Assembly: GCF_030062155.1 (NCBI RefSeq)
Contig: NZ_CP118269.1
Location: 1-64,000, forward strand
Length of the DNA stretch: 64,000 nt
Reading direction: 5' to 3'
DNA from: Pantoea sp. Lij88
Lineage (GTDB): Bacteria; Pseudomonadota; Gammaproteobacteria; Enterobacterales; Enterobacteriaceae
Position numbers and translations under genes: made by a program. The stretch's first letter is position 1. Each line of letters opens with the position of its first letter. Below, in pieces: positions 9,765 through 57,614 of this stretch. The notes beneath the pieces are model-generated. The model saw only the letters and a program-made list of their open reading frames with translations. It was not told the origin of the DNA and did no database searches.

Positions 9765-9869
9765 TTTACGGACGCACTCACGGTTGCCGCAAGGGACAGT
9801 GAGGTGCCGTAACCAGCCTGTCCAGTCGTGGAAGGTTGCCAAAACTTGCTGAATTTCAGGAGTCTTAAT
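9765..9869 (+). promoter_or_regulatory. ROSE-like RNA thermometer in ibpA leader
   Basis: The leader just before ibpA is about 100 bases long and rich in complementary segments. In the last hairpin the TTGCT at 9846-9850 faces the AGGAG ribosome-binding site at 9858-9862 across a short loop. This is the diagnostic arrangement of ROSE elements, in which the U(U/C)GCU strand masks the Shine-Dalgarno sequence at low temperature. Heat would melt it and permit IbpA translation. The assignment rests on position and sequence pattern, not on a folding calculation. Confidence 0.75.
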
Positions 9870-10286
9870 ATGCGTAATTTTGATCTCACCCCACTTTATC
9901 GCTCTGCTATCGGTTTTGATCGCCTGTTTAACCTGCTCGAATCTAATCAGAATCAGAGCAACGGCGGCTATCCTCCTTATAACGTTGAACTGGTCGATGA
10001 AAATCACTATCGCATTACCATTGCGGTGGCCGGTTTTTCGCAGAGCGAACTGGATATCACGGCGCACGATAACGTGCTGATCGTGCGGGGTGCCCATCCT
10101 GAAGAGCAGGCCGAGCGTAAATACCTGTATCAGGGAATCGCCGAACGTAACTTCGAGCGTAAATTCCAGCTCGCCGACCACATTGTGGTGCGCGATGCCC
10201 GTCTCGAAAATGGTCTGCTGAGCATCGACCTTGAACGTCTGGTGCCGGAAGAGGCGAAACCACGCCGTATTGAGATTCTGAAGTAA
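9870..10286 (+). CDS. ibpA: Small heat-shock protein IbpA
   Basis: IbpA is an alpha-crystallin-type holdase that coats aggregating proteins and hands them to DnaK/ClpB. The 138 residues compare with 137 in E. coli. An N-terminal arm [25 protein letters not shown] precedes the alpha-crystallin domain (about 35-125) and the C-terminal IEI motif (RRIEILK). Residues 66 and 109 are His and Asp, where E. coli has Gln and Gly. ATG at 9870 follows CAGGAG. A strong terminator comes directly after it and there is no ibpB, so this organism appears to run a one-protein IbpA system, as known for Erwiniaceae. Confidence 0.96.
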
Positions 10287-10313
10287 TATTCAGATTCTGA
10301 AGTCATCCTGACA

Positions 10314-10340
10314 AACGCCGCTAATGCGGCGTTTTTTTTT
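10314..10340 (+). terminator. Rho-independent terminator after ibpA
   Basis: AACGCCGC and GCGGCGTT pair around TAAT and are followed by nine or more T. Just upstream, AGATTCTGAAGT is present twice (end of ibpA and about 20 bases later), a small tandem duplication. Confidence 0.93.
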
Positions 10341-10569: not shown

Positions 10570-11481
10570 TTACAGCTGCGTCCGCATCGCCAGACGCTGC
10601 CCCAGCACGCCACCAAACACATTAACCAGCAGCCCCAGAATAATCACCACCGCCCCCAGCATCTGCTGACCGGAAAGACGCTCATCCAGCACCAGCGCAG
10701 CAGTAATAATCCCCACGACCGGCACCAGCAGCGACAGCGGCGCGATACGCCAGGTTTCGTAGCGACTCAGCAAATTCCCCCAGATGGCGTAGCCCACAAT
10801 CGTGGCGACAAACGCCAGATAGATCAGCGCCAGCACGGTCTGCAGGCCGATATGCAGCAGGCTGTTAACGATGGCGGCCTCGCCATCAAACAGCAGCGAA
10901 CAGGCAAAGAACGGAATGACCGGCACCAGCGCACTCCAGACCACCAGCGACATGATCGGCACGCTACGGTTACGCATGATGATCTTATTGGTGATATTCC
11001 CCAGCCCCCATGACAGCGCCGCCGACAGCGTCAGCATCATAGTCGTCAGCGTAATGCCGGCGCTGGTCTGCCCCTCCATTCCTGCCGTCGCCAGCATAAA
11101 CATCCCCAGCGTGGCGATGATAATCCCGACGATATGATTCCAGCGCAGCTTCTCCGCCAGCAACAGCGCGCCCAGCAACAGGGTAAAGAATGCCTGCGCC
11201 TGCAGCACTAGTGAGGCCAGCCCGGCGGGCATGCCGAGCTTGATCGCCAGAAACAGAAACGCGAACTGACCAAAGCTGATAGTCATGCCATAAACCACCA
11301 GCCAGTGCAGCGGGATCGGTGGGCGTCGCACAAAGAAAATGGCGGGAAAGGCGACCAGAGTAAAACGCAGTCCGGCGAGCAAAAAAGGCGGCATGCCCTG
11401 TAGCCCCAGCTTAATCACCACAAAATTCACGCCCCACGCCACCACCACGCACAGCGCTAACAGCATATCTTTTACCGACAT
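10570..11481 (-). CDS. eamA: EamA-type cysteine/O-acetylserine exporter
   Basis: This is an inner-membrane drug/metabolite transporter of 303 residues with two EamA repeats and about ten membrane segments. It is closely similar to E. coli EamA (YdeD), which exports cysteine and O-acetylserine. Conserved stretches include WGVNFVVIKLGLQGMPP, MPAGLASLVLQAQAFFT and YETWRIAPLSLLVPVVG. ATG at 11481 follows AAGGAG. It begins 21 bases after the stop of the YeaK-like gene on the same strand and so probably ends the block that starts at 16304. In that setting it could export the locus product instead of, or as well as, cysteine; that is an inference. Confidence 0.9.
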   Translation of the reverse strand: MSVKDMLLALCVVVAWGVNFVVIKLGLQGMPPFLLAGLRFTLVAFPAIFFVRRPPIPLHWLVVYGMTISFGQFAFLFLAIKLGMPAGLASLVLQAQAFFTLLLGALLLAEKLRWNHIVGIIIATLGMFMLATAGMEGQTSAGITLTTMMLTLSAALSWGLGNITNKIIMRNRSVPIMSLVVWSALVPVIPFFACSLLFDGEAAIVNSLLHIGLQTVLALIYLAFVATIVGYAIWGNLLSRYETWRIAPLSLLVPVVGIITAALVLDERLSGQQMLGAVVIILGLLVNVFGGVLGQRLAMRTQL

Positions 11482-11502
11482 CAGAAACTCCTTGTCCCGC
11501 CG

Positions 11503-12003
11503 TCAGGCGGTGATCGCCATCGGGGACGCGATATCAGCACAGCACGCGTCACCCACGATGCGAAAATAATCATCTGCAGCCAGCGCGATCGACTTCTCCA
11601 GCTCGCCCGCGTTAAACCATAACGTGCCGACCTGCTGCAGCCGGGTATCCACCCGCAGCGCCAGCCGGTCATCAAAACTAAACGGCGGCACCGCGCCCAT
11701 CACACAGTCGGTCAGCGCCTGCGCCAGCTCCGGCGCGGCGAACGAGGATTTCTTACCGCCGATAGCGCGCGCCGCGTTTTTGAAATTGATCCGGCAGTCG
11801 CCCGGCACAATGGCCAGCAGCTGTCGCGACGGTGCACCGTCCGGCATGATCACCTCCAGTACCATCGCTTTGGCCGCCTGACCCAGCTGGTTACCGCGTA
11901 TCTGGCTAATCTGCTCGGTCTGCCCTACCGCCTCATGCTCCACCACATGGTAGCTGGCCTGATGCTGATCCAGCAGCGCAGTAATCTTTTCAAACGTCGT
12001 CAT
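11503..12003 (-). CDS. YbaK/YeaK-type aminoacyl-tRNA deacylase
   Basis: A 166-residue free-standing editing domain of the YbaK/ProX superfamily, closest in my reading to E. coli YeaK. Such proteins hydrolyse wrongly charged aminoacyl-tRNAs in trans. Diagnostic features are HEAVGQTEQISQIRG, the conserved Lys in LGQAAKAMVLEV, the GAVPPFSF loop and FNAGELEKSIAL. ATG at 12003 follows a strong AAGGAGAAGGGA; a longer in-frame opening upstream has no such site. It lies 41 bases after the oxygenase gene and 21 before eamA on one strand, with no terminator visible. It could protect the host from an amino-acid analogue made by the upstream genes, but it may equally be a housekeeping editor. Confidence 0.85.
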   Translation of the reverse strand: MTTFEKITALLDQHQASYHVVEHEAVGQTEQISQIRGNQLGQAAKAMVLEVIMPDGAPSRQLLAIVPGDCRINFKNAARAIGGKKSSFAAPELAQALTDCVMGAVPPFSFDDRLALRVDTRLQQVGTLWFNAGELEKSIALAADDYFRIVGDACCADIASPMAITA

Positions 12004-12044
12004 TCCCTTCTCCTTTTCTGGCACAACTTCTGGCATAACCCGGC

Positions 12045-12845
12045 TTAGCTCCAGGCGATAGCGTGTTTCATCTTTTTATCGGTCAGCCCGAAAAAGAACC
12101 CCATGGTGATGCGGGTATCGCCTTCGACCCGGTCGATCTCATGATAAAAAGCAGGATTAAACAGATAGATATCGCCACTGCGCGGTGAAAACTCACAGAT
12201 CTCGTTGTGACCAATCACCCCACTGCGATAACCCAGTTCACCGGCGGTCTTGAACTGCTCATCCTCCGGCGTCCACTTTTTGTTATAGATGCGCAGCGCC
12301 CCGCCCGCATTGCACTCCTGCAGGCAGACCACACAGCTGAGCTGATGCAGGATCTGCGTCACCACCAGCGAGGTCCCTGCGGCGTCGCGCACGATATTGT
12401 CGTTATGCAGCGGATTCGCGACGCCATCGGCATGAAAGCGCACGATGGAGCCGGCGTAGTCACCACAACCCGGTTCGTAGGCGATGTTTAAACTCTCCAG
12501 CCGCAGCGCATGCTGCACCCAGCCGTAAATCTGTTCGCGCAGCTGGTTCAGCGAAGGTGGCAATGCCGGCTGGATATCACGCAGCTCCGTAAAGTAGTTA
12601 TCGGGTGCCGCGGTGTGGCGCGCCAGATAGGGGCCCAGCGTGGTCAGTGCGCCATTGGGATAGTGAGAGACACGGATCTTTTCCCGGCAGCTCTGCAGGT
12701 CAGCCACCACTGCCTGCCGCACCTCTGGCGTCAGGAAATTACGCAGCACCAGCAGCGGCACCCGTGCGGTGACGATGTCATCCAGCCAGGTTGATTCCAC
12801 AAACATGTTGGGATTAATCACGCGGAACTGATTGAAAATTGCCAT
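12045..12845 (-). CDS. 2-oxoglutarate/Fe(II)-dependent oxygenase
   Basis: A 266-residue double-stranded beta-helix oxygenase. The Fe(II) facial triad is readable as His147-x-Asp149 (PLHNDN) and His235 (FNPAFYHEIDR), with Arg245 (GDTRITMGF) placed to bind 2-oxoglutarate. These enzymes hydroxylate, desaturate or otherwise oxidise a substrate while converting 2-oxoglutarate to succinate. ATG at 12845 has AGGGAG about 8 bases upstream; that site overlaps the end of the amidotransferase gene, whose stop is only 5 bases before. A GTG three codons upstream is less likely. I do not recognise a named orthologue. Tight coupling to ligase genes suggests it tailors an amino-acid-like product. Confidence 0.85.
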   Translation of the reverse strand: MAIFNQFRVINPNMFVESTWLDDIVTARVPLLVLRNFLTPEVRQAVVADLQSCREKIRVSHYPNGALTTLGPYLARHTAAPDNYFTELRDIQPALPPSLNQLREQIYGWVQHALRLESLNIAYEPGCGDYAGSIVRFHADGVANPLHNDNIVRDAAGTSLVVTQILHQLSCVVCLQECNAGGALRIYNKKWTPEDEQFKTAGELGYRSGVIGHNEICEFSPRSGDIYLFNPAFYHEIDRVEGDTRITMGFFFGLTDKKMKHAIAWS

Positions 12846-12850
12846 GTTTA

Positions 12851-13558
12851 TCACTCCCTAAACGGTATTTCATAGAGTTCATGATTATTCATTCGCCGCC
12901 AGCTGCCGGCGCTGCCTGGTATTGCCACGGGTTCAGAGGCGATCAGCGTGCAACCGTCCTGTTGCCGAAAATGCATCGTAAAATAGTCGGGCCAGGGCGT
13001 GTCGTGCGGATACCACTGCCACGCCCAGGCTTTGTCGCGGGTGACGAAAATGGCATTGCCTGCGCTGCCGCCCGGCTCAACCTGCGCCATCTTTGCGCGC
13101 AGATAGTCGCGGGTGAAATCGGCGGGCGTGGTCTGATCCACCAGATAGCGCAGATACTCTTCGGAATCGAAGCGTGACTCCGCCAGGCCAAGCTGGCGGT
13201 AAATAGTCGGCAGAAAACCGTTATGCATCATGTACCACTGATGTCCGGCGCTGTTGCGCCACAGCGGATGTGAAAATTCGATCCCCTGATTTTTAGTCAG
13301 CGTGGCGTGACGCACATGCACCGCCAGAAACCGGCTGCGCAGGCGATCCACATCAATACCCGGCAGGGCGTCTGCGAACGGGCCGGTGCCGTGCAGGGTG
13401 CGGATTTCGCCCTCTTCCAGCCACAGACAGCCCCAGCCGTTGGGATGCGATTTGATCGGGCCGTCGTGTTCGGCGCCTTCACCGCAACTCATGGCGCGCG
13501 CCGCCTCTAAAATCTGTGCGCTGTCGAACCGGCCATGCGCCAGAATCATCCTGCACAT
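12851..13558 (-). CDS. Stand-alone class II glutamine amidotransferase
   Basis: This 235-residue protein is an Ntn-hydrolase glutaminase. The start MCRM leaves Cys2 as the N-terminal nucleophile after Met removal. Conserved family elements follow in order: HPNGWG at 38-43, HVRHAT at 81-86 (Arg83 would hold the glutamine carboxylate), and MMHNGFL with Asn113-Gly114 as the oxyanion site. It resembles YafJ-type proteins and has no synthetase domain. Its ATG overlaps the last 13 bases of the ATP-grasp gene, and the oxygenase gene starts 5 bases after its stop. With the PP-loop protein two genes upstream it could make a split asparagine-synthetase-like pair, supplying ammonia for amidation. Its acceptor is unknown. 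Confidence 0.87.
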   Translation of the reverse strand: MCRMILAHGRFDSAQILEAARAMSCGEGAEHDGPIKSHPNGWGCLWLEEGEIRTLHGTGPFADALPGIDVDRLRSRFLAVHVRHATLTKNQGIEFSHPLWRNSAGHQWYMMHNGFLPTIYRQLGLAESRFDSEEYLRYLVDQTTPADFTRDYLRAKMAQVEPGGSAGNAIFVTRDKAWAWQWYPHDTPWPDYFTMHFRQQDGCTLIASEPVAIPGSAGSWRRMNNHELYEIPFRE

Positions 13559-14820
13559 ACTTTGTCTCTCCCTGCGGTGACGGACTGCGCGGCAATCACC
13601 TGTTGAAACGTGGTCATGATCGGCTCACGCGCCGTGGCCGTCAGGCTGAAGGTGGCGAGAATGCCCGCATGACGGGTCAGATCGGCATAGAGCGAGGAGC
13701 GCGGTGAAACCTGCAATGCAGGCAATCTGAGGGGGGGCAACAGCGCGCCCTGCTGATGCTGAGCGATCCAGCGTTCGGCTGCCTGCAGCTGCGCCGGTTG
13801 CCGTAAACGCAGCTGGCCGACGGCACCGGGTGTGGTGAAGGTAAAGGCGGGTAACACGCCGCCCGCTTCCAGCCGGAAGGTGACATCCGCCCAGTTGATG
13901 CCCGTCGCCTCCTGCACCAGCGTCGCGACGCCCATGCCGGAGAGCCGGAACCCCATCTCCAGGAAATGCGGCACACCGTTCACTACAATGAAATCAATAT
14001 GAAACGCGCCCTGACGATAGCCAAAGGTTTCGCAACAGAAGGTCATCAGGCTGCTGAACGACGCCGGTAACGCCGCTGCCGCCATCGCCACATGGCCCGA
14101 CTCATAAAAACTGACGCAACCCTCCGCATCACGGTGCTGCTCAATCACCTTCTGGCAGCAGGTCAGCGCCTGGGGATGGCCCTGATGCACCACGCCCTGC
14201 AGCGAAAACTCCTCGCCGATCAGGGCACTCTCCACAATGAAACCGCTGAAGCCGCGTCCGCCGTAGTTCATGGTCTGCACCAGCTGTTTCACCACGCGGT
14301 GCAGCTGATCGGCGCGCTCAATGAGCCAGATGCCCAGCCCGCCGCCGCCATCTACCGGTTTCACGACGCAGGGATAGATCAGCGCCTGTTCCGCATCCAG
14401 AATGCTGAGCGGCGAGGCGAAAAAGCGGAACTCCGGCTGCGGGAAGCGCGGCCAGGCTTTTTTCAGCGCCATGCGCTGCGCATATTTATCCAGCGGAATA
14501 AAGGCGGCGGGTGCGTCCGGTCCGGCCAGCATCTCGCGCAGTCGTCCGGCGCTGGCGTTGTAGGCCTCAAAGCCCGCCAGCACCACCAGCGGATGCGCCA
14601 GTAAACCGGCGTGCAGATAGGCCTGCATGACCTCCCACGGATTCTCAGGACGGTCGAGGCGGATGATCAGATCAAACGGCAGCGCCAGGCTGATGGACTG
14701 GTAATCGACAAAGTCACCCATCTCTGCCAGCACGGTGAAATAGCCATCGCGCTTCGCCACCGCGCAGTAGGGGTTTTGTCCGTCGCGGGTGGCGCCAATT
14801 TGCAGGAAAATCTTCTTCAT
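13546..14820 (-). CDS. ATP-grasp carboxylate-amine ligase-like protein
   Basis: A 424-residue ATP-grasp enzyme. The nucleotide-binding strand and glycine-rich loop read YPCVVKPVDGGGGLGIWLI (Lys154, Gly158-161), and the C-terminal metal-binding part includes FHIDFIVVNGVPHFLEMGFRLSG. Family members form an acylphosphate and join a carboxylate to an amine, as in dipeptide or amino-acid ligases. ATG at 14820 follows AAGGCGAGG. It starts 17 bases after the PP-loop gene and overlaps the amidotransferase gene. The C-terminal 100 residues (after about 320) are poorly conserved to my eye. The substrates are unknown; the context suggests condensation of amino-acid-like building blocks. Confidence 0.82.
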   Translation of the reverse strand: MKKIFLQIGATRDGQNPYCAVAKRDGYFTVLAEMGDFVDYQSISLALPFDLIIRLDRPENPWEVMQAYLHAGLLAHPLVVLAGFEAYNASAGRLREMLAGPDAPAAFIPLDKYAQRMALKKAWPRFPQPEFRFFASPLSILDAEQALIYPCVVKPVDGGGGLGIWLIERADQLHRVVKQLVQTMNYGGRGFSGFIVESALIGEEFSLQGVVHQGHPQALTCCQKVIEQHRDAEGCVSFYESGHVAMAAAALPASFSSLMTFCCETFGYRQGAFHIDFIVVNGVPHFLEMGFRLSGMGVATLVQEATGINWADVTFRLEAGGVLPAFTFTTPGAVGQLRLRQPAQLQAAERWIAQHQQGALLPPLRLPALQVSPRSSLYADLTRHAGILATFSLTATAREPIMTTFQQVIAAQSVTAGRDKVCAG

Positions 14821-14837
14821 CGCCTCGCCTTACCGGG

Positions 14838-16304
14838 TTAACGCCCGGAAATGATTTCTGTCACGATGTCATTGAGCACACCGTTATTGACCTGAATCAC
14901 CGCTTTGTGGGGATCAAAACGCAGCACGCGCGACAGCGGGTCGCTGCTTTTGCCCTCCAGCAGCGAACTGACCGGTTTACTCTGCCAGCAGTGGCGCATC
15001 TGCGTCAGCGTCAGGCCAGAGAGCTGCGTTAACTGCTGTGCCAGCGCGAGATCCTCACTGCGCTGCTCAAGCAGGTCGCGAATGGCTGTTTCATCCAGCG
15101 CAATCTGCTGCTGCGACAGCCAGTCTCCGAGCTGCGCGCCCTGCGCGAGGAAAGGTGAGTAGATCATGCAGATCAGCTGATCTTCACTGAGATCAAATGC
15201 CTGCATGGCGAAGTCCGCCGCGCGCTGCCGCTGCTGCCGGATGGCGTCGTCATCCTGATAGCGCGCCGCCATCTCATTGATAAGCGCGGGCGGAAAATCC
15301 TTCTTCGCCATCAGCCCCAGCGCAAAGCGCACATACTCGCGGATCCCTTCGGCATAGTTGCGCTGCAGCAGCGTTTCTGCCCGCAGTCCGCGCAGATGTG
15401 CCATCAGCGTTGGATTACCGCAGTCGGACTCCGAAAAGCTGAACATCAGTTCATCAAACCGGAAGCGCATAAATTCGCTGAGCAGCGCCCAGTGCGCGCC
15501 CGCTTCATAGGCAGTGTCCTGATAGATGTTGAAAAACAGCGGATCGCGCGCCAGCTGGTGGGTGATGCGGTGCGCAGGCGTCAGCTGATCGGCGCCGTAA
15601 ACCTCGCTGAAGTAGCGCTCAGCAACGCCGTCCAGCGTCTGGAGAAACCCGCTGAAGCCCCGGCTTTTACTGGTGACCTGCGCATCAAACAGCCGGGAAA
15701 GGTGCCGCGCCCAGGCGACATAGGCAGCCTGCTCCTGCGGGGAGTCGCCGGTGATAATCAGATCCACGCCGCCGTTGTAGTCAGCCGCCAGGCCAAAGGA
15801 GTTCACCATGCTGAGATTACAGGCGTTGCAGAAGGTCGAGCGCGCATCGGCGCGAAAGCGGTGGCCATTCATCAGCACGTCATTACGGTTCTGCTGCCGC
15901 ACGCTCTCCGGCATCGGCAGGTCGCGGGCAAACGGCCGGATCAGCAGGCCATCCACCACCAGACATTCTGCCCGTTCATCGTCATGCATCGCCAGCGCCT
16001 GATAAACGCGATGGATGTTCTCCATCACGCTCTGATTCATTGCCGCATGACGGTTGGTACTGACCCGCAGATGAAACGTGCTGCCCTGCTGCAGCCAGAT
16101 CAGTCCCTGAATGTAACGCACGTACGCCACCATGTAGCTGCTGTCTTTTCCACCGCCGTAGGCGAGCAGCACACGGTTATTCTCCAGCTGCTGCTGATCC
16201 GGCAGCGCCGCCAGCAGGCGCACAGCGCAGCGCTGAGCCGACTCAATGATGGCGGGTGACAGATACGCTTCAATCTCCTTCATCATGGCGGGCAGATTAT
16301 TCAT
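14838..16304 (-). CDS. PP-loop ATP pyrophosphatase (asparagine synthase-like)
   Basis: A 488-residue adenylating enzyme. VLLAYGGGKDSSYMVAYVR at about 45-63 is a PP-loop motif in which the usual first Ser of SGGxDS is Gly. ARSTFCNACNL supplies a Cys159-x2-Cys162 pair that may bind metal or act in catalysis, and LIITGDSPQEQAAYV is a likely second substrate loop. Such enzymes activate a carboxylate or base as AMP ester before attack by ammonia, an amine or sulfur. No glutaminase domain is fused; the separate amidotransferase two genes downstream could fill that role. ATG at 16304 follows GAGGG. It is the first gene of the block and is divergent from the MocR regulator. I do not recognise a named orthologue. 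Confidence 0.75.
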   Translation of the reverse strand: MNNLPAMMKEIEAYLSPAIIESAQRCAVRLLAALPDQQQLENNRVLLAYGGGKDSSYMVAYVRYIQGLIWLQQGSTFHLRVSTNRHAAMNQSVMENIHRVYQALAMHDDERAECLVVDGLLIRPFARDLPMPESVRQQNRNDVLMNGHRFRADARSTFCNACNLSMVNSFGLAADYNGGVDLIITGDSPQEQAAYVAWARHLSRLFDAQVTSKSRGFSGFLQTLDGVAERYFSEVYGADQLTPAHRITHQLARDPLFFNIYQDTAYEAGAHWALLSEFMRFRFDELMFSFSESDCGNPTLMAHLRGLRAETLLQRNYAEGIREYVRFALGLMAKKDFPPALINEMAARYQDDDAIRQQRQRAADFAMQAFDLSEDQLICMIYSPFLAQGAQLGDWLSQQQIALDETAIRDLLEQRSEDLALAQQLTQLSGLTLTQMRHCWQSKPVSSLLEGKSSDPLSRVLRFDPHKAVIQVNNGVLNDIVTEIISGR

Positions 16305-16419
16305 TTTTCACGTTTCCCTCAGGTGAACAGAATCACTTTATGGCCTGAAGCCGGGCGGCTGGCGGGGTCGCCGTGCCGCTTAGCGTCATGAATAATTAAG
16401 AGATGCAGCCTAAACTACT

Positions 16420-16439
16420 TTGAATGTACTCTGTTGAAT
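16420..16439. promoter_or_regulatory. Direct repeat upstream of the MocR regulator
   Basis: TTGAAT occurs at 16420-16425 and again at 16434-16439 with a 14-base period, within the divergent region of the PP-loop and MocR genes. MocR/GntR-type regulators often bind direct repeats. This is therefore a candidate site, weakly supported by sequence alone. Confidence 0.3.
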
Positions 16440-16472
16440 ATGCACAGATCAGCGCGATATGGGGTGGAACAG

Positions 16473-17933
16473 ATGGCCGATATTATCGGAGAACAGGAGA
16501 GTCAGAGCAGTCGTTATCGCCAGATCGCAGAACAGATTAAGCAGGCCATTCACGCCGGTTCGCTGGCACCTGACAGCCGCCTGCCGTCGGTACGGACGCT
16601 GGCGACACAGTACAATGTCAGCCTCACCACCGCTCTGAAAACCCTGCGTACGCTGGAAGATGAACGCTACGCCGTCGCCCGTCCTAAATCGGGCTTTTTT
16701 GTCGCCCCGCAGCGGCCCGCTTCACGTCAGCTGCCCGCCGTCAGCGAACAGCCGCGCGCCATCGCGCCGCTGGATGAGCAGACAGAACTGCATCTGGCGA
16801 TGCTCGGCTCAGACTGCCGGGTGCGTCTCGATCTGGCCAACGGCGACAGCGCGCTCTATCCGGTCAAACGCATCGGCCTGCTGATGCGCCAGATGGGCTA
16901 CAGCAAACCGGCCCTGCTCGGCAATACGGTCAAGGGCACCGGCTATGCGCCGCTGAAAACGGAGATTGCCCGTCGCGCGGTCGATTACGGCTGCAATATC
17001 AGCGCCGACGATATTCTGATCACCAACGGCTGCATTGAGGCGATCTCGCTGTCGCTGCGCGCCACCACCCAGCCGGGCGACGTGGTGGCGGTGGAGTCCC
17101 CCTGCTATTTCGTGCTGCTGCAGATGCTGCATAACCTGAATTTACGGGTGATTGAGGTGGAAGCCGGTCCGGAAGGGTATGTGAATGTGGCGAAGCTGAC
17201 CGGCCTGTTTCAGCGCAAGGCGGTGCGGGTCTTTCTCACCCTGTGCAACGTCAATAATCCGCTGGGCAAGAGCATTCCCAACGAACATAAAGCCTATATC
17301 GCACGGCAGGCCGATGAAAACGATGTGGTGATCATTGAGGATGACATTTTTGGTGACACCGCCTTTGGTGAGCGGCGTCCGTTCCCGATGCGCGCCTTCA
17401 GCCCCAACGCCATTCTCTGCAGCGGCTTTTCCAAAACCGTGGCTCCGGGCATTCGTATTGGCTGGGTTCACAGCGTCAACTACATGCGCAAAATCGCCTC
17501 ACTGAAATATACCTCCACCATGGGCACCTCGGTGCTGTCACAGGCGGCGGTAGCGGAGCTGCTGCGCAGCGGCGGCTATGATGCTCACCTGCGCAAGCTG
17601 CGGCGCGAGCTGGCGCGGCAAATCCGTGAGATGCGTCAGTCGGTGCTGCGGGAATTTCCGGCAGGCACGCGGGTGTCCGATCCGGAAGGAGGCTATGTGC
17701 TGTGGGTTGAGATGCCGCGAGCGGCGCTGAACGTGCGCGAGCTGTTTCTGAAAGCGCGTAATGGGGGTATCGGGATTGCGCCGGGCCACATTTTTGCCAC
17801 CGATCAGCGCTACGATCACTGTTTCCGGCTGAATGCCGGTTTCGGCTGGAATGATGAAGTGGAACAGGCCATTAAGCAGCTGGCACAGTGGTGCCAGCTG
17901 TCGTTAACCGATTCACAGGAAGAGCAGGTTTAG
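16473..17933 (+). CDS. MocR-type regulator (GntR HTH plus PLP aminotransferase fold)
   Basis: This 486-residue protein joins an N-terminal GntR winged helix (RYRQIAEQIKQAIHAGSLAPDSRLPSVRTLATQYNVS) to a fold-type I aminotransferase domain. The predicted PLP lysine lies in CSGFSKTVAPGIRIGW. It resembles E. coli YdcR. MocR proteins sense pyridoxal phosphate adducts or amino compounds and control nearby genes. ATG at 16473 is used because GGGTGG precedes it; ATG at 16440 is an alternative. It is divergent from the PP-loop gene with a gap of about 170 bases, so it is the obvious candidate regulator of the minus-strand block. Its stop overlaps the stop of convergent avtA by 4 bases. Confidence 0.9.
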   Translation: MADIIGEQESQSSRYRQIAEQIKQAIHAGSLAPDSRLPSVRTLATQYNVSLTTALKTLRTLEDERYAVARPKSGFFVAPQRPASRQLPAVSEQPRAIAPLDEQTELHLAMLGSDCRVRLDLANGDSALYPVKRIGLLMRQMGYSKPALLGNTVKGTGYAPLKTEIARRAVDYGCNISADDILITNGCIEAISLSLRATTQPGDVVAVESPCYFVLLQMLHNLNLRVIEVEAGPEGYVNVAKLTGLFQRKAVRVFLTLCNVNNPLGKSIPNEHKAYIARQADENDVVIIEDDIFGDTAFGERRPFPMRAFSPNAILCSGFSKTVAPGIRIGWVHSVNYMRKIASLKYTSTMGTSVLSQAAVAELLRSGGYDAHLRKLRRELARQIREMRQSVLREFPAGTRVSDPEGGYVLWVEMPRAALNVRELFLKARNGGIGIAPGHIFATDQRYDHCFRLNAGFGWNDEVEQAIKQLAQWCQLSLTDSQEEQV

Positions 17934-35475: not shown

Positions 35476-36468
35476 TCAGAGTTCGCTCTGTTTGTGGAAA
35501 CCGTCTTTCACCACGGTGCTTTCGATATTGTCTTTGTTGACCGGAATCGGCTTCAGCAGTCGTGACGGCACATCTTTCAGGCCATTGTTCAGTTTGCTGT
35601 TGCTGGCCGGCGTTTTGCCCTCGCCCAGCTCGACGGCAATTTTCGCCGCTTCGGTGGCCAGCTCGGTAATCGGTTTATAAACCGTCATGGTCTGGGTGCC
35701 CGCTTTGATACGTTTAATCGCGGCCAGATCGGCATCCTGTCCGGAGATCGCCACTTTTCCGGCCAGCCCCTGCGCACTCAGCGCCTGAATTGCGCCGCCA
35801 GCGGTGGCATCGTTAGAGGCGACGACCGCATCGATGTGGTTGCTGTTGGCGGTCAGGGCGTTTTCCATAATTTTGAGGGCGTTTTCTGGCAGCCAGGCAT
35901 CGACCCACTGATCGCCGACAATTTTAATGCTGCCATTATCAATATAAGGTTTTAACACTTTCATCTGTCCGGCGCGGAACAGGCGGGCGTTATTATCCAC
36001 AGGCGATCCACCCATTAAAAAATAGTTGCCCTTAGGCACCTGTTTCACAATGCTTTCGGCCTGCAGTTCGCCTACTTTTTCATTATCGAAAGAGATATAA
36101 AAATCGATATCGGCGTTATTTATCATTCGGTCATAGGCCAGCACTTTAATGCCTTCCCGTTTCGCTTCAGCGACAACGTTACTCAATACCTGACCGTTGT
36201 AGGGAATTATCACCAGCACATCGACACCGCGGTTGATCATATTTTCAATCTGCGACATCTGCGTCTCTTCGTTGCCATTGGCTGACTGAACAAACACCTT
36301 AGCGCCCAGCGTTTCCGCCTGTTTAACGAAAATGTCGCGGTCTTTCTGCCAGCGCTCAAGGCGCAAATCGTCAATCGCCATGCCGATCTTCACTTCTTTT
36401 GCCACGCTGGTCTGGCTGAACAGCGCCAGCGCCGCGCAGGCGGCGAACAGTGCATGTTTCATCTTCAT
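35476..36468 (-). CDS. xylF: D-xylose-binding periplasmic protein XylF
   Basis: XylF captures D-xylose in the periplasm and delivers it to XylGH. The 330-residue precursor has a signal peptide MKMKHALFAACAALALFSQTSVAKE that is probably cleaved after SVA. The mature protein follows E. coli XylF closely (KIGMAIDDLRLERWQKDRDIFVKQAETLGAKVFVQSANGNEETQM, and DAVVASNDATAGGAIQALSAQGL). It is the first gene of the minus-strand xyl group and is divergent from xylA across a 344-base regulatory gap. Confidence 0.97.
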   Translation of the reverse strand: MKMKHALFAACAALALFSQTSVAKEVKIGMAIDDLRLERWQKDRDIFVKQAETLGAKVFVQSANGNEETQMSQIENMINRGVDVLVIIPYNGQVLSNVVAEAKREGIKVLAYDRMINNADIDFYISFDNEKVGELQAESIVKQVPKGNYFLMGGSPVDNNARLFRAGQMKVLKPYIDNGSIKIVGDQWVDAWLPENALKIMENALTANSNHIDAVVASNDATAGGAIQALSAQGLAGKVAISGQDADLAAIKRIKAGTQTMTVYKPITELATEAAKIAVELGEGKTPASNSKLNNGLKDVPSRLLKPIPVNKDNIESTVVKDGFHKQSEL

Positions 36469-36554
36469 TGTGATTATCCTGTAGGTTGAGGCTATTGTCG
36501 TTTCAGGCCGATAAACCAGGCGGATGAATTGTTGCCCTTCTTTTCGGATTACAG

Positions 36555-36598
36555 CAATTACTGATTTTTATCCGGCTATTACGTTTTTTGGTTTATTT
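36555..36598 (-). promoter_or_regulatory. XylR binding region for xylF
   Basis: On the minus strand two tandem AT-rich units occur: GAAATAAACCAAAAAACGTAAT (in 36577-36598) and GATAAAAATCAGTAATTG (in 36555-36572). They closely resemble the direct-repeat XylR site upstream of E. coli xylF (CAAAAATCGTAAT and AAAAATCTGTAATTG as I recall it). Confidence 0.75.
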
Positions 36599-36682
36599 CC
36601 TTTTTTATGAGCGCGATCGAGGTTTCATCTTTTTCGGACACGCGAGTGATAATGATAAACCGCCCCTCAAATAACATTATTT

Positions 36683-36698
36683 TGCGAGCCAGCGCACA
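36683..36698. promoter_or_regulatory. CRP-like site between xylF and xylA
   Basis: TGCGA-N6-GCACA matches the cAMP-CRP consensus TGTGA-N6-TCACA at 8 of 10 positions. It lies centrally between the divergent xyl operons, where catabolite control is expected. Confidence 0.55.
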
Positions 36699-36812
36699 AA
36701 TAATAATTATCTGATGCCCGGAGTGAAATATCGTAATTGAGCTGAGGCAGCAGCCCATATTGAATATTGCTTCTACGCAGACCATTCGGGTACTGATGCT
36801 AAGGAGCAAACC

Positions 36813-38135
36813 ATGCACGCTTATTTCGATCAGATCGATCGGGTTCGTTATGAAGGCACCCAGTCGACTCATCCTCTCGCTTTCCGCCATTACAACCCTG
36901 ATGAAGTGATCCTCGGCAAGACCATGGCGGAGCATCTGCGCTTTGCTGCCTGTTACTGGCACACCTTCTGCTGGAATGGTGCGGATATGTTTGGTGTTGG
37001 CGCCTTTGATCGTCCGTGGCAGAAAAGCGGAGATGCGCTGCAGCAGGCAAAACTGAAGGCGGATGTGGCCTTTGAGTTTTTCCACAAGCTGAATGTGCCG
37101 TGGTACTGCTTCCATGACGTTGATGTCTCACCGGAAGGCGATTCGCTGCACAGCTACAAAGAAAACTTTGCCGCCATGACCGATAAACTGCTGGAGAAAC
37201 AGCAGGAGACAGGCGTGAAACTGTTGTGGGGCACGGCTAACTGCTTTACCCATCCGCGCTACGGTGCGGGCGCTGCCACCAATCCCGATCCGGAGGTCTT
37301 TGCCTGGGCCGCGACGCAGGTCTGCAGCGCAATGCAGGCGACCAAAACCCTGGGTGGCGAAAACTATGTGTTATGGGGCGGGCGTGAAGGCTATGAAACC
37401 CTGCTGAATACCGATCTGCGCCAGGAACGCGAGCAGATCGGCCGCTTTATGCAGATGGTGGTCGAGCACAAACACAAAATTGGCTTCCAGGGAACGTTGC
37501 TGATCGAGCCGAAACCGCAGGAGCCGACCAAACATCAGTATGACTATGATGTCGCGACGGTATATGGCTTCCTGAAACAGTTCGGGCTGGAGAAAGAGAT
37601 CAAGGTTAACGTTGAGGCGAACCACGCCACGCTGGCCGGCCACTCTTTCCATCATGAAATTGCGACCGCCATCGCGCTGGGTATTTTCGGTTCCGTGGAT
37701 GCCAACCGCGGCGATCCGCAGTGCGGCTGGGATACCGATCAGTTCCCGGTCAGCGTGGAAGAGAATGCGCTGGTGATGTACGAAATCCTTAAGGCGGGTG
37801 GCTTTACCACCGGCGGCTTAAACTTTGATGCCAAAGTACGTCGTCAGAGCACGGATAAATATGATCTCTTCTACGGCCATATTGGTGCGATGGACACCAT
37901 GGCGCTGGCACTGAAAGTGGCGGCCCGCATGATCAGCGATGGGGAACTCGATAAGCGTGTGGCACAGCGCTACAGCGGCTGGAATGGTGAGTTCGGCCAG
38001 CAAATTTTGAAAGGGGAGTTTTCACTGGAGGCGCTGGCGGCGCATGCTCAGCAGCAGCAGCTCAATCCGAAGCATCAGAGCGGACGTCAGGAGCAGCTGG
38101 AAAATCTGGTGAATCACTACCTGTTTGATTTCTAA
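36813..38135 (+). CDS. xylA: Xylose isomerase XylA
   Basis: XylA converts D-xylose to D-xylulose in the cytoplasm. The 440 residues equal the E. coli length. Catalytic and metal residues are recognisable in [16 protein letters not shown] (His and Asp pair), [35 protein letters not shown] and DTDQFP. ATG at 36813 follows AAGGAGCAAACC. It leads the xylAB operon, with xylB 17 bases later. Confidence 0.98.
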
Positions 38136-55099: not shown

Positions 55100-56307
<1,208 letters not shown>

Positions 56308-56399
56308 GACGCTGATACTCTCCTGCCCCGTTAGGGGTATGTCGCGTGTCGTATAAGACTGCCTTTGCGCAGTTGAGTCAAGCAGCAAAAGCCGTGCAA

Positions 56400-56427
56400 A
56401 TTATACGGGCCGCACCTGCGATTTCAA
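56400..56427 (-). promoter_or_regulatory. Sigma-70 promoter of the atp operon
   Basis: On the minus strand TTGAAA (56422-56427), a 16-base spacer and TATAAT (56400-56405) form a near-consensus promoter about 95 bases upstream of atpI. It points into the operon. Confidence 0.8.
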
Positions 56428-56996
56428 TCGGTAAGTAGCGAAAAGGTGAACAATTATTTAAATTTCTTTCCGGAGGGCTATTTTTCCAAAGATTACCCTG
56501 CAGAGATTCACGCTAATCTGACTGAAAATTCCCTCGCATCTTGCTTTTAAAGCGTGCTTTAGATCACATAATAAGCACTCACACTACACTGAGTTTTATC
56601 TGGCACCTATTTAAGAACAATCTGTAAAACAGATTAAACCTTTAAAATCAGTGTATTGAAATTATAAAATTGCGCATGCAAGCCTATTTTCACCTAAAAC
56701 ACGCTATTGACATCGAAGTATGCTTAAGAATCGTGAAATTGATATTACGCACGCAAAGTTATTACCACGATATATTTTCCGGCGTGACTACTTTTATTCC
56801 GCGACCCGCCTATACAAGTGATATTTCTGATAAATAAATGTGAACTAATCGTTAAATGTAACAGAGCTTTTCGGATAATTTCCGTGGCCCTTTTTAACCT
56901 TCTGCCAGCCAGGGGTTAATCAAAATCTTTTATTGATAGCGCATCATATGCACTTTTTTCATTGGAACCCTGATAAAACCCCTGGTAAATAAAGGC
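56428..56996. other. AT-rich gene-free region between atp promoter and rsmG
   Basis: No gene is seen in these 569 bases, which are clearly more AT-rich than the flanks. AATCTGT/ACAGATT is a perfect palindrome with loop AAA at 56619-56635. A half CRP-like site TAGATCACA lies at 56560-56568, inside an inverted pair GTGCTT/AAGCAC (56554-56578). Additional promoters for the atp operon are plausible here. Confidence 0.6.
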
Positions 56997-57614
56997 CTAC
57001 TGGTGACGAATGATGACCAGATGACGGTCACCTTCCAGCTGCGGCACCTGCAGCTTAATCACCGCATCGGAGACATAACCGGCCGGTAATTCAGCGATTT
57101 CATCATCCGGACGCACACCTTTGAGCGCAAAGAACCGCCCTTCTCTTCCCGGCAGATGATGACACCAGTTCACCATGTCGGTCAGCGAGGCAAATGCGCG
57201 ACTGATTACGCCATCAAAAGGCGGCTCAGCCGGGAATGCCTCAACCCGGCTCTGCACCGGAGTAATGTTAGTGAGTCCTAACTCATGCTGAACCTGACGC
57301 AGGAAACGCACCCGCTTGCCCAGGCTGTCGAGCAGCGTAAAGTGCGCATCGGGCATCACGATAGCCAGCGGAATGCCAGGCAATCCGGGTCCGGTTCCGA
57401 CATCAATAAAACGTGAGCCTTTCAGATGCGGCGCCACCACGATGCTGTCGAGAATATGGCGGACCAGCATCTGCTGCGGGTCGCGCACGGATGTCAGATT
57501 GTAGGCTTTGTTCCACTTGTCCAGCAGGCCGACATAGGCAACCAGCTGCTGTTTTTGTTGATCGGAGAGGGAAATACCGGCTGCTTTTAGCAGCGACGTG
57601 AGTGTGTTGATCAC
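56997..57614 (-). CDS. rsmG: 16S rRNA (guanine-527-N7) methyltransferase RsmG
   Basis: RsmG (GidB) methylates G527 of 16S rRNA with S-adenosylmethionine. The 205 residues compare with 207 in E. coli. The SAM-binding motif is [30 protein letters not shown], and the substrate-side [17 protein letters not shown] follows. It is 47 bases after mnmG on the same strand, the usual gidAB pair. Confidence 0.96.

Follow-up and report, generated by a model that had tools for sequence, protein, structure and literature searches.

A conserved Pantoea operon built around an unnamed PP-loop enzyme family, a tentative route to a small amino acid–type antimetabolite without nonribosomal peptide synthetases

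Three cysteines are recorded both for the transfer RNA (tRNA) thiolase NcsA, whose ligands are C142, C145, and C233 (PMC10067955), and for CtaC of the closthioamide cluster (C154, C157, and C284; PMC6772006). The Pantoea ananatis PNP-1 antibiotic cluster is headed by pnp1A, a divergent GntR-aminotransferase regulator (PMC4010436). The program antiSMASH is reported to have missed the PNP-1, PNP-2, and pantocin A clusters, and PNP-3 in one of two strains (PMC7744662). Small clusters free of nonribosomal peptide synthetases (NRPSs) are poorly seen by genome-mining tools. Here, we describe a six-gene operon in a 64,000-nucleotide stretch of Pantoea sp. Lij88 DNA (contig NZ_CP118269.1, positions 1 to 64,000; hereafter, the window), which belongs to a 4.74-Mb genome of 3 contigs. 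Literature searches returned no description of the six-gene cluster that we recognized.

The operon (5.7 kb) comprises six minus-strand open reading frames (ORFs) at 16304-10570, flanked by a gene for a MocR-type regulator and by a plus-strand gene at 9828-10286, which was recognized by eye only and which we take to encode an IbpA-type small heat-shock protein. From the PP-loop gene to the EamA gene, the spacings are 17, −13, 5, 41, and 21 bases. An initial annotation, made from the letters of the window alone, had proposed six co-directional genes with these spacings and a divergent MocR gene, and ORF coordinates together with Pfam domains bear this out exactly. Its ATP-grasp, amidotransferase, oxygenase, and EamA family calls also hold (ATP-grasp_4, GATase_4, WelO5 PF22814, and EamA). 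The operon probably encodes a pathway to a small molecule, complete with self-protection and an exporter, and the PP-loop enzyme family is its main novelty. The genes and motifs discussed below are as follows.

14838..16304, minus strand: PP-loop (AANH superfamily) enzyme, 488 amino acids, a proposed sulfur-inserting (thioamide/thiocarboxylate) synthase; no Pfam or NCBIfam family
16140..16157, minus strand: PP-loop ATP motif GGGKDS, residues 50 to 55, each residue at ≥97% in 211 aligned sequences
15819..15833, minus strand: FCNAC motif with Cys159 and Cys162, both in 211/211 aligned sequences
15420..15431, minus strand: ESDC motif with Cys295, a proposed third cluster ligand, in 211/211 aligned sequences
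13546..14820, minus strand: ATP-grasp ligase, by profile of the L-amino acid ligase type; ATP-grasp_4; best profile match BL00235 ligase 3vot
12851..13558, minus strand: stand-alone class II amidotransferase-like N-terminal nucleophile (Ntn) hydrolase; GATase_4, 36.3 bits (cut-off 23)
13553-13555, minus strand: N-terminal catalytic Cys2 of the amidotransferase-like protein, from the alignment
12045..12845, minus strand: 2-oxoglutarate (2OG)-Fe(II) oxygenase, hydroxylase-type HxD; WelO5 Pfam family PF22814, 71.5 bits (cut-off 27)
11503..12003, minus strand: YbaK/ProX-like (INS superfamily) aminoacyl-tRNA editing protein, proposed to provide self-protection; tRNA_edit, 73.6 bits (cut-off 25.5)
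10570..11481, minus strand: EamA (DMT) exporter; EamA Pfam, closest model NF008523

The PP-loop protein had no match up to an E value of 0.001 in Pfam and NCBIfam. A Pfam scan of 25 family members with E values up to 5 gave scattered chance matches only, and nothing meaningful was returned when Protein Data Bank sequences were searched with the profile of the family alignment (A1; 24 of the 120 listed proteins plus the window protein). We took the motif seen by eye to be a PP-loop, and the structure matches bear this out. The ATP-binding motif of [4Fe-4S] AANH thiolases is present in the protein, as is their CxxC pair followed by a third downstream cysteine (Cys159, Cys162, and Cys295). The three cysteines are invariant in the 211 aligned sequences, a redundant set about a third of which was fetched with a pattern containing the FCNAC/ESDC cysteine motifs, so that the sampling is partly circular. 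Among the 115 full-length proteins of the 120 listed by a word-based search, literal FCNAC and literal ESDC each occur in 113. A separate feature is the C terminus, which reads (S/A/T)GR in 210/210 homologs (201 SGR, 7 AGR, and 2 TGR; window codons at 14841-14849).

As judged from alignments, alignment ends, and published numbering rather than from coordinates, Cys295 is at most one residue away from where the last aligned pair would place Cys233 of NcsA. The second cysteine is separated from the Gly of the next strand motif by 24 residues in the window protein and by 23 in TtcA of the same genome; in QueC and WbuX, the conserved cysteines lie at other positions. Foldseek placed NcsA first (E 2e-3 with the whole model and 3.4e-4 with the domain model) and asparagine synthetase next. 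TtuA entries are among the matches, and the domain-model list also includes the 6-thioguanine thiolase YcfA. The profile of the PP-loop family matches that of TtcA with P 1.5e-5, centered on GGGKDS. We regard insertion of sulfur at the PP-loop step as an evenly balanced proposition.

Several results weigh against sulfur insertion. By the same kind of comparison, the basic residue found four positions after the second cysteine, Arg149 in NcsA and Lys135 in PhTtuA (PMC10067955), is missing and is Met166 in both the window protein and the consensus. The VIA structure aligner puts an N-acetyl sugar amidotransferase first, and profile-profile comparison fails to separate the PP-loop protein from QueC or the sugar amidotransferases (WbuX) and gives it no clear position among these and TtcA. 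The profile sets held 20 TtcA sequences, QueC from 30 of 30 loci, WbuX from 25 of 30, 10 AsnB sequences, and 1 TilS; the PAPS set covered only 2 of 30 loci, the motif filter having failed on the rest. Against cluster-borne AsnB, the family profile gave P 0.052. Since Pfam finds no Asn_synthase domain, the strict reading as a split asparagine synthetase was rejected; a structural resemblance remains.

In a rival reading, the PP-loop enzyme would use ammonia to form an amide, amidine, or nitrile. The amidotransferase-like protein would then hydrolyze glutamine and hand the ammonia over to the PP-loop enzyme, whose target would be a carboxylate or amide in adenylated form, by analogy with asparagine synthetase, QueC, ArtA/NitB, or N-acetyl sugar amidotransferase, and the three cysteines would be structural or zinc-binding. 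This rival is serious, if on balance rather unlikely: the cysteines are placed as in the [4Fe-4S] thiolases, unlike those of QueC and WbuX, and a search for three types of glutaminase gave no match in two other cluster types of the family (types C and D below). The nature of the amidotransferase-like protein also bears on the question. It has a class II amidotransferase fold, as the GATase_4 match and the N-terminal catalytic cysteine indicate, with no fused partner. Cys2 and H-x-x-GWG are present in 16/16 rows of its alignment (A3), the rows having been started by script at the MC/VC motif, so that the Cys2 count is a selected one; the best profile match is 1te5. Stand-alone class II enzymes such as EgtC and DUG3 hydrolyze gamma-glutamyl amides rather than feed synthetases, which counts against the ammonia rival. 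Candidate roles for the protein here are to remove a protecting residue or to supply ammonia.

The ATP-grasp profile (A5) best matches the BL00235 ligase 3vot (E 8.5e-23), with BacD 3wo1 at E 3.8e-7; 4 of the 20 script-picked rows, one of them wrong, were left out of the alignment. By these profiles, the protein is a ligase of the L-amino acid type. An identity with the dapdiamide synthase DdaF was rejected (40.5 bits against the NF041595 cut-off of 840), in agreement with the initial annotation, which had seen no match to the dapdiamide genes.

The oxygenase has H150, D152, and a distal H238 when numbered from the GTG at 12854, a possible alternative start 9 bases upstream of 12845. Its PF22814 match (“carrier-protein-independent halogenase WelO5,” 71.5 bits), a name repeated in some source annotations, would fit a WelO5-type halogenase and a chlorinated amino acid as the product. 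In halogenases of this type, the Asp of HxD is replaced by Gly (HxG). Since HxD is retained in 113/114 aligned sequences, WelO5-type halogenation was rejected as very improbable; the enzyme should be of the hydroxylase type, and the halogenase name used in databases does not suit it. A PADLOC scan matched only a generic 2OG model, for this oxygenase.

The initial annotation had called the fifth protein a YeaK-like deacylase. That name is better replaced by YbaK/INS superfamily. The closest structures to the profile are 3op6 (E 1.4e-12) and YbaK 2dxa (E 5.2e-12). The alignment left out 8 of 19 script picks (6 from a wrong place and 2 short or redundant), and a longer ORF was substituted in the L043 locus. 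The protein scores 61.5 bits, below the 153.25-bit cut-off of the YbaK Cys-tRNA(Pro) deacylase model TIGR00011; the longest possible start of its ORF is at 12036. The exporter is nearest to the O-acetylserine/cysteine exporter EamA model NF008523, also below the cut-off (401.7 versus 472 bits).

Loci of relatives were drawn from the best 80 of 193 confirmed places, which gave 78 loci from named genomes, 35 from Enterobacterales and 43 from elsewhere. The retrieval patterns contained the PP-loop cysteine motifs, which, together with the selection of the best 80, makes locus counts and cysteine conservation lean toward close relatives; the protein searches (best 120 matches) were free of these motifs. 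Presence and order were scored by tblastn detection, a measure that does not extend to the intactness of each copy, and neighboring ORFs were called with a simple script that mis-framed some high-GC neighbors. In 33 of the 35 Enterobacterales loci, all six genes are detected with order and strand unchanged; the other two are L028, a contig end, and L034, whose copy is decayed. A MocR match lies beside the operon in 35/35 (partial in L034). In the L017 locus, the PP-loop match is shortened, and those to the ATP-grasp and oxygenase genes are partial. Among the matches listed, the nearest PP-loop proteins are from Pantoea (93 to 96% identity). Matches to the PP-loop gene were found in 51 of 61 Pantoea genomes, that of the window included: in 47 genomes a single copy is full-length and uninterrupted, in 4 the gene survives as broken remnants, and 10 are without a match. 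The operon is thus a near-core trait of Pantoea and not a sporadic island. A plasmid-borne island was rejected, with one plasmid record matched (Methylobacter, 39.5% identity). In four pairwise comparisons, the ratio of nonsynonymous to synonymous substitution rates (dN/dS) was 0.06 to 0.22 for all six genes, which are therefore under purifying selection; a fifth comparison, with Hafnia, was saturated.

The initial annotation had held that enzymes scattered and unlinked in relatives would speak against it. The four-enzyme core (PP-loop, ATP-grasp, amidotransferase-like, and oxygenase genes) instead keeps its order and strand in 9 of the 43 non-Enterobacterales loci, from three phyla: Myxococcus (L035 and L050), Streptomyces/Streptantibioticus (L037, L039, L040, and L049), Micromonospora (L041), Azospirillum (L038), and a gammaproteobacterial metagenome-assembled genome with one gene inserted (L043). 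The YbaK-like gene and an EamA-type exporter gene are each present in 8 of these 9 loci, sometimes in a different order or strand; MocR matches were found by tblastn in 0/9. The co-occurrence of these genes across phyla partly supports the earlier proposal that a small amino acid–like compound is made, tailored, tolerated, and exported. In Pseudomonas fragi (L067), the PP-loop gene is split over two frames, and ATP-grasp and YbaK-like matches are missing. Gene content, gene order, purifying selection, cross-phylum conservation, and conserved catalytic residues, all obtained by computation, define a conserved cross-phylum pathway built around a PP-loop enzyme family that lacks a name.

The near-core distribution and purifying selection, and an exporter nearest to a cysteine/O-acetylserine exporter model, would also fit a housekeeping operon for amino acid tailoring or detoxification, in which the editing protein and exporter dispose of a normal metabolite. 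We consider this explanation improbable: of the 61 Pantoea genomes, 10 lack the operon and 4 have it in broken form, and in distant phyla the family is patchy and its surroundings resemble gene clusters, some of which include genes for hydrazine formation, adenylation-thiolation, or a second ATP-grasp enzyme. A search of an Escherichia coli collection, at the DNA sensitivity used, likewise gave no match.

The PP-loop family recurs in four further architectures at 42 to 49% identity, here labeled types B to E. Type B combines the PP-loop gene with genes for an HMGL-like protein, an FAA hydrolase, an adenylation-thiolation protein, a thioesterase, EamA, and SDR proteins, with an asparagine synthetase in 12/13 loci and a protein with a LeuRS-type editing domain in 6/13. 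In L065 (3879-12518), L079 (3722-15051), and their relatives, the PP-loop gene is joined to those for asparagine synthetase, the adenylation-thiolation protein, and the thioesterase; in L079, the cluster also encodes a 480–amino acid protein with a LeuRS-type editing domain. Type C (L036, L045, L047, L052, L055, L058, L060, L063, L064, L069, and L074) has a lysine N-oxygenase in 9/11 loci, a MetRS-like protein and an L-amino acid ligase in 10/11 each, and a glutamate-mutase-like gene in 5/11, along with a cupin, an FAD oxidase, a peptide-binding protein, a P450, and an MFS protein. This set includes the hydrazinoacetate genes of the azaserine cluster (azs gene table, PMC10445470). Type D (three loci) encodes a LysRS-like protein, a luciferase-like oxygenase, glutamate-mutase-like proteins, two ATP-grasp enzymes, and a ketopantoate hydroxymethyltransferase, with MocR-like matches in two loci. 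These loci, L076 (6041-14811), L077, and L078, are from Pseudomonas/Ramlibacter; the hydroxymethyltransferase was seen in L076. Type E (five loci) pairs ATP-grasp with CN_hydrolase.

An amide-forming enzyme, either ATP-grasp or asparagine synthetase, was detected by tblastn in 75 of the 78 loci (exceptions, L064, L067, and L068). Such an enzyme lies within 5 kb of the PP-loop gene in 39/43 non-enteric loci compared to 3/122 control loci (453 kb); the control is imperfect, and the queries were partly derived from the same loci. This proximity suggests, as a general rule, that the PP-loop enzyme acts on an amide or at a site beside one. The gene inserted between the PP-loop and ATP-grasp genes in L043 encodes a sodium:dicarboxylate symporter, a weak hint that the substrate may be aspartate- or glutamate-like; the glutamate-mutase-like genes of type D would fit the same hint.

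A maximum-likelihood tree was built from 47 PP-loop proteins. Type C occupies a single branch, as does type D (100% bootstrap for both). Type A, the architecture of the window, is divided among an enteric, a Myxococcus, and an actinobacterial line and the long branches L038 and L043, and types B and E are also split; deep forks are weak. Not included were 31 enteric loci that were near-identical, cut, or broken, and L067, which has no usable ORF. The scattering of type A implies either that it is ancient and was repeatedly reshuffled or that it spread by transfer.

Upstream of the operon lie two further features.

16434..17933, plus strand: divergent MocR-type regulator with GntR and class I/II aminotransferase domains (Pfam), its start probably the ATG near 16473
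16305..16433, no strand: divergent promoter region with a 9-nucleotide inverted pair (16296-16304 / 16388-16396); block conserved in close relatives

A block in 16305-16440, with GTACATTCAAAGTAGTTTAGGCTGCATC, is kept with small changes in the closest relatives and is possibly the MocR operator. No sigma-70-like match was found near the operon start in a promoter scan. A terminator scan gave four terminator-like matches on the minus strand inside operon genes (9 in the whole region versus 5.1 in shuffles). In the convergent gap between the ibpA-like and EamA genes, a 9-pair hairpin followed by a T-run lies at 10313-10334, 3′ of the ibpA-like gene. The G+C content in 1-kb steps is 0.474 at 36001-37000 and 0.439 at 56001-57000, and 0.50 to 0.63 in the rest of the window.

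From these data we infer production of a compound, sulfur chemistry, an order of steps, and a role for the editing protein. The ATP-grasp enzyme would form an amide, most simply between the substrate amino acid and a second amino acid. The PP-loop enzyme would adenylate the substrate carbonyl, and sulfide held on a [4Fe-4S] cluster bound by its three cysteines would replace oxygen with sulfur, yielding a thioamide or thiocarboxylate, as with CtaC in closthioamide biosynthesis. The HxD oxygenase would hydroxylate the carbon skeleton, and the amidotransferase-like protein would split a glutamyl-type amide (release or deprotection) or, alternatively, give ammonia. The YbaK-like protein would hydrolyze tRNA mischarged with the product, and the EamA protein would export it. 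MocR proteins bind pyridoxal phosphate, and the one encoded here may sense an amino acid signal. The product is best read as a hydroxylated, perhaps thio-modified, amino acid or dipeptide, and it is likely an antimetabolite. Taken as a whole, the scheme, in which the six genes form an NRPS-independent route to a small amino acid–type antimetabolite, is tentative, and we place it slightly short of an even chance.

A broader and more doubtful, though possible, reading is that the PP-loop protein is the first of a new family of synthases that insert sulfur, in the Pantoea type without a carrier, and that would convert amino acid amides or carboxylates to thioamides or thioacids. It would be reused as a warhead module in at least five architectures, which are spread over Pseudomonadota, Actinomycetota, Myxococcota, Chloroflexota, and Thermodesulfobacteriota and in many cases bring a YbaK- or LeuRS-type editing domain as immunity. 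On this reading, most members of Pantoea, a plant-associated genus, would make such an antimetabolite. A single PP-loop family is a marker for an entire set of small NRPS-free clusters in at least five phyla, and the trans-editing genes that accompany it suggest products that reach the translation machinery. If the family does insert sulfur into amino acids, it would offer a way to mine genomes for thio-antimetabolites, a class of which almost nothing is known; if amides, amidines, or nitriles are made instead, that chemistry would still gain a new branch. Since the operon is compact and near-core in Pantoea, these proposals are directly testable.

Among described systems, the closthioamide cluster shares the NRPS-independent logic and the pairing of an ATP-grasp enzyme (CtaD) with a PP-loop enzyme (CtaC) whose three cysteines have a comparable layout (PMC6772006), a comparison of cysteine layouts. 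The six Pantoea genes differ in lacking a carrier protein and in including oxygenase, amidotransferase-like, and editing genes. The tRNA thiolases NcsA, TtuA, and TtcA share the PP-loop fold and the CxxC plus third cysteine, with NcsA the top Foldseek match. The window protein differs from them in an extra C-terminal region, in Met166 in place of the basic residue, and in its biosynthetic gene context, and its stretch between the second and third cysteines is ~45 residues longer than that of NcsA. The Pantoea antibiotic clusters for dapdiamide, PNP-1, and PNP-3 and cluster 675 are likewise small operons; dapdiamide shares an ATP-grasp ligase and PNP-1 the divergent regulator pnp1A (PMC4010436), whereas the parts of the PNP-1 and cluster 675 gene lists that were compared do not show the present gene set. 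In the 6-thioguanine pathway, the Erwinia PP-loop enzyme YcfA, one of the domain-model fold matches, makes a thio-antimetabolite (PMC6225789), but it serves thiolated guanine synthesis together with the pyridoxal phosphate protein YcfC. Last, the azaserine and triacsin hydrazinoacetate clusters resemble the type C relatives, which pair the PP-loop family with a lysine N-oxygenase, a cupin, a MetRS-like protein, and an FAD oxidase (PMC10445470), whereas the Pantoea operon has no hydrazine genes.

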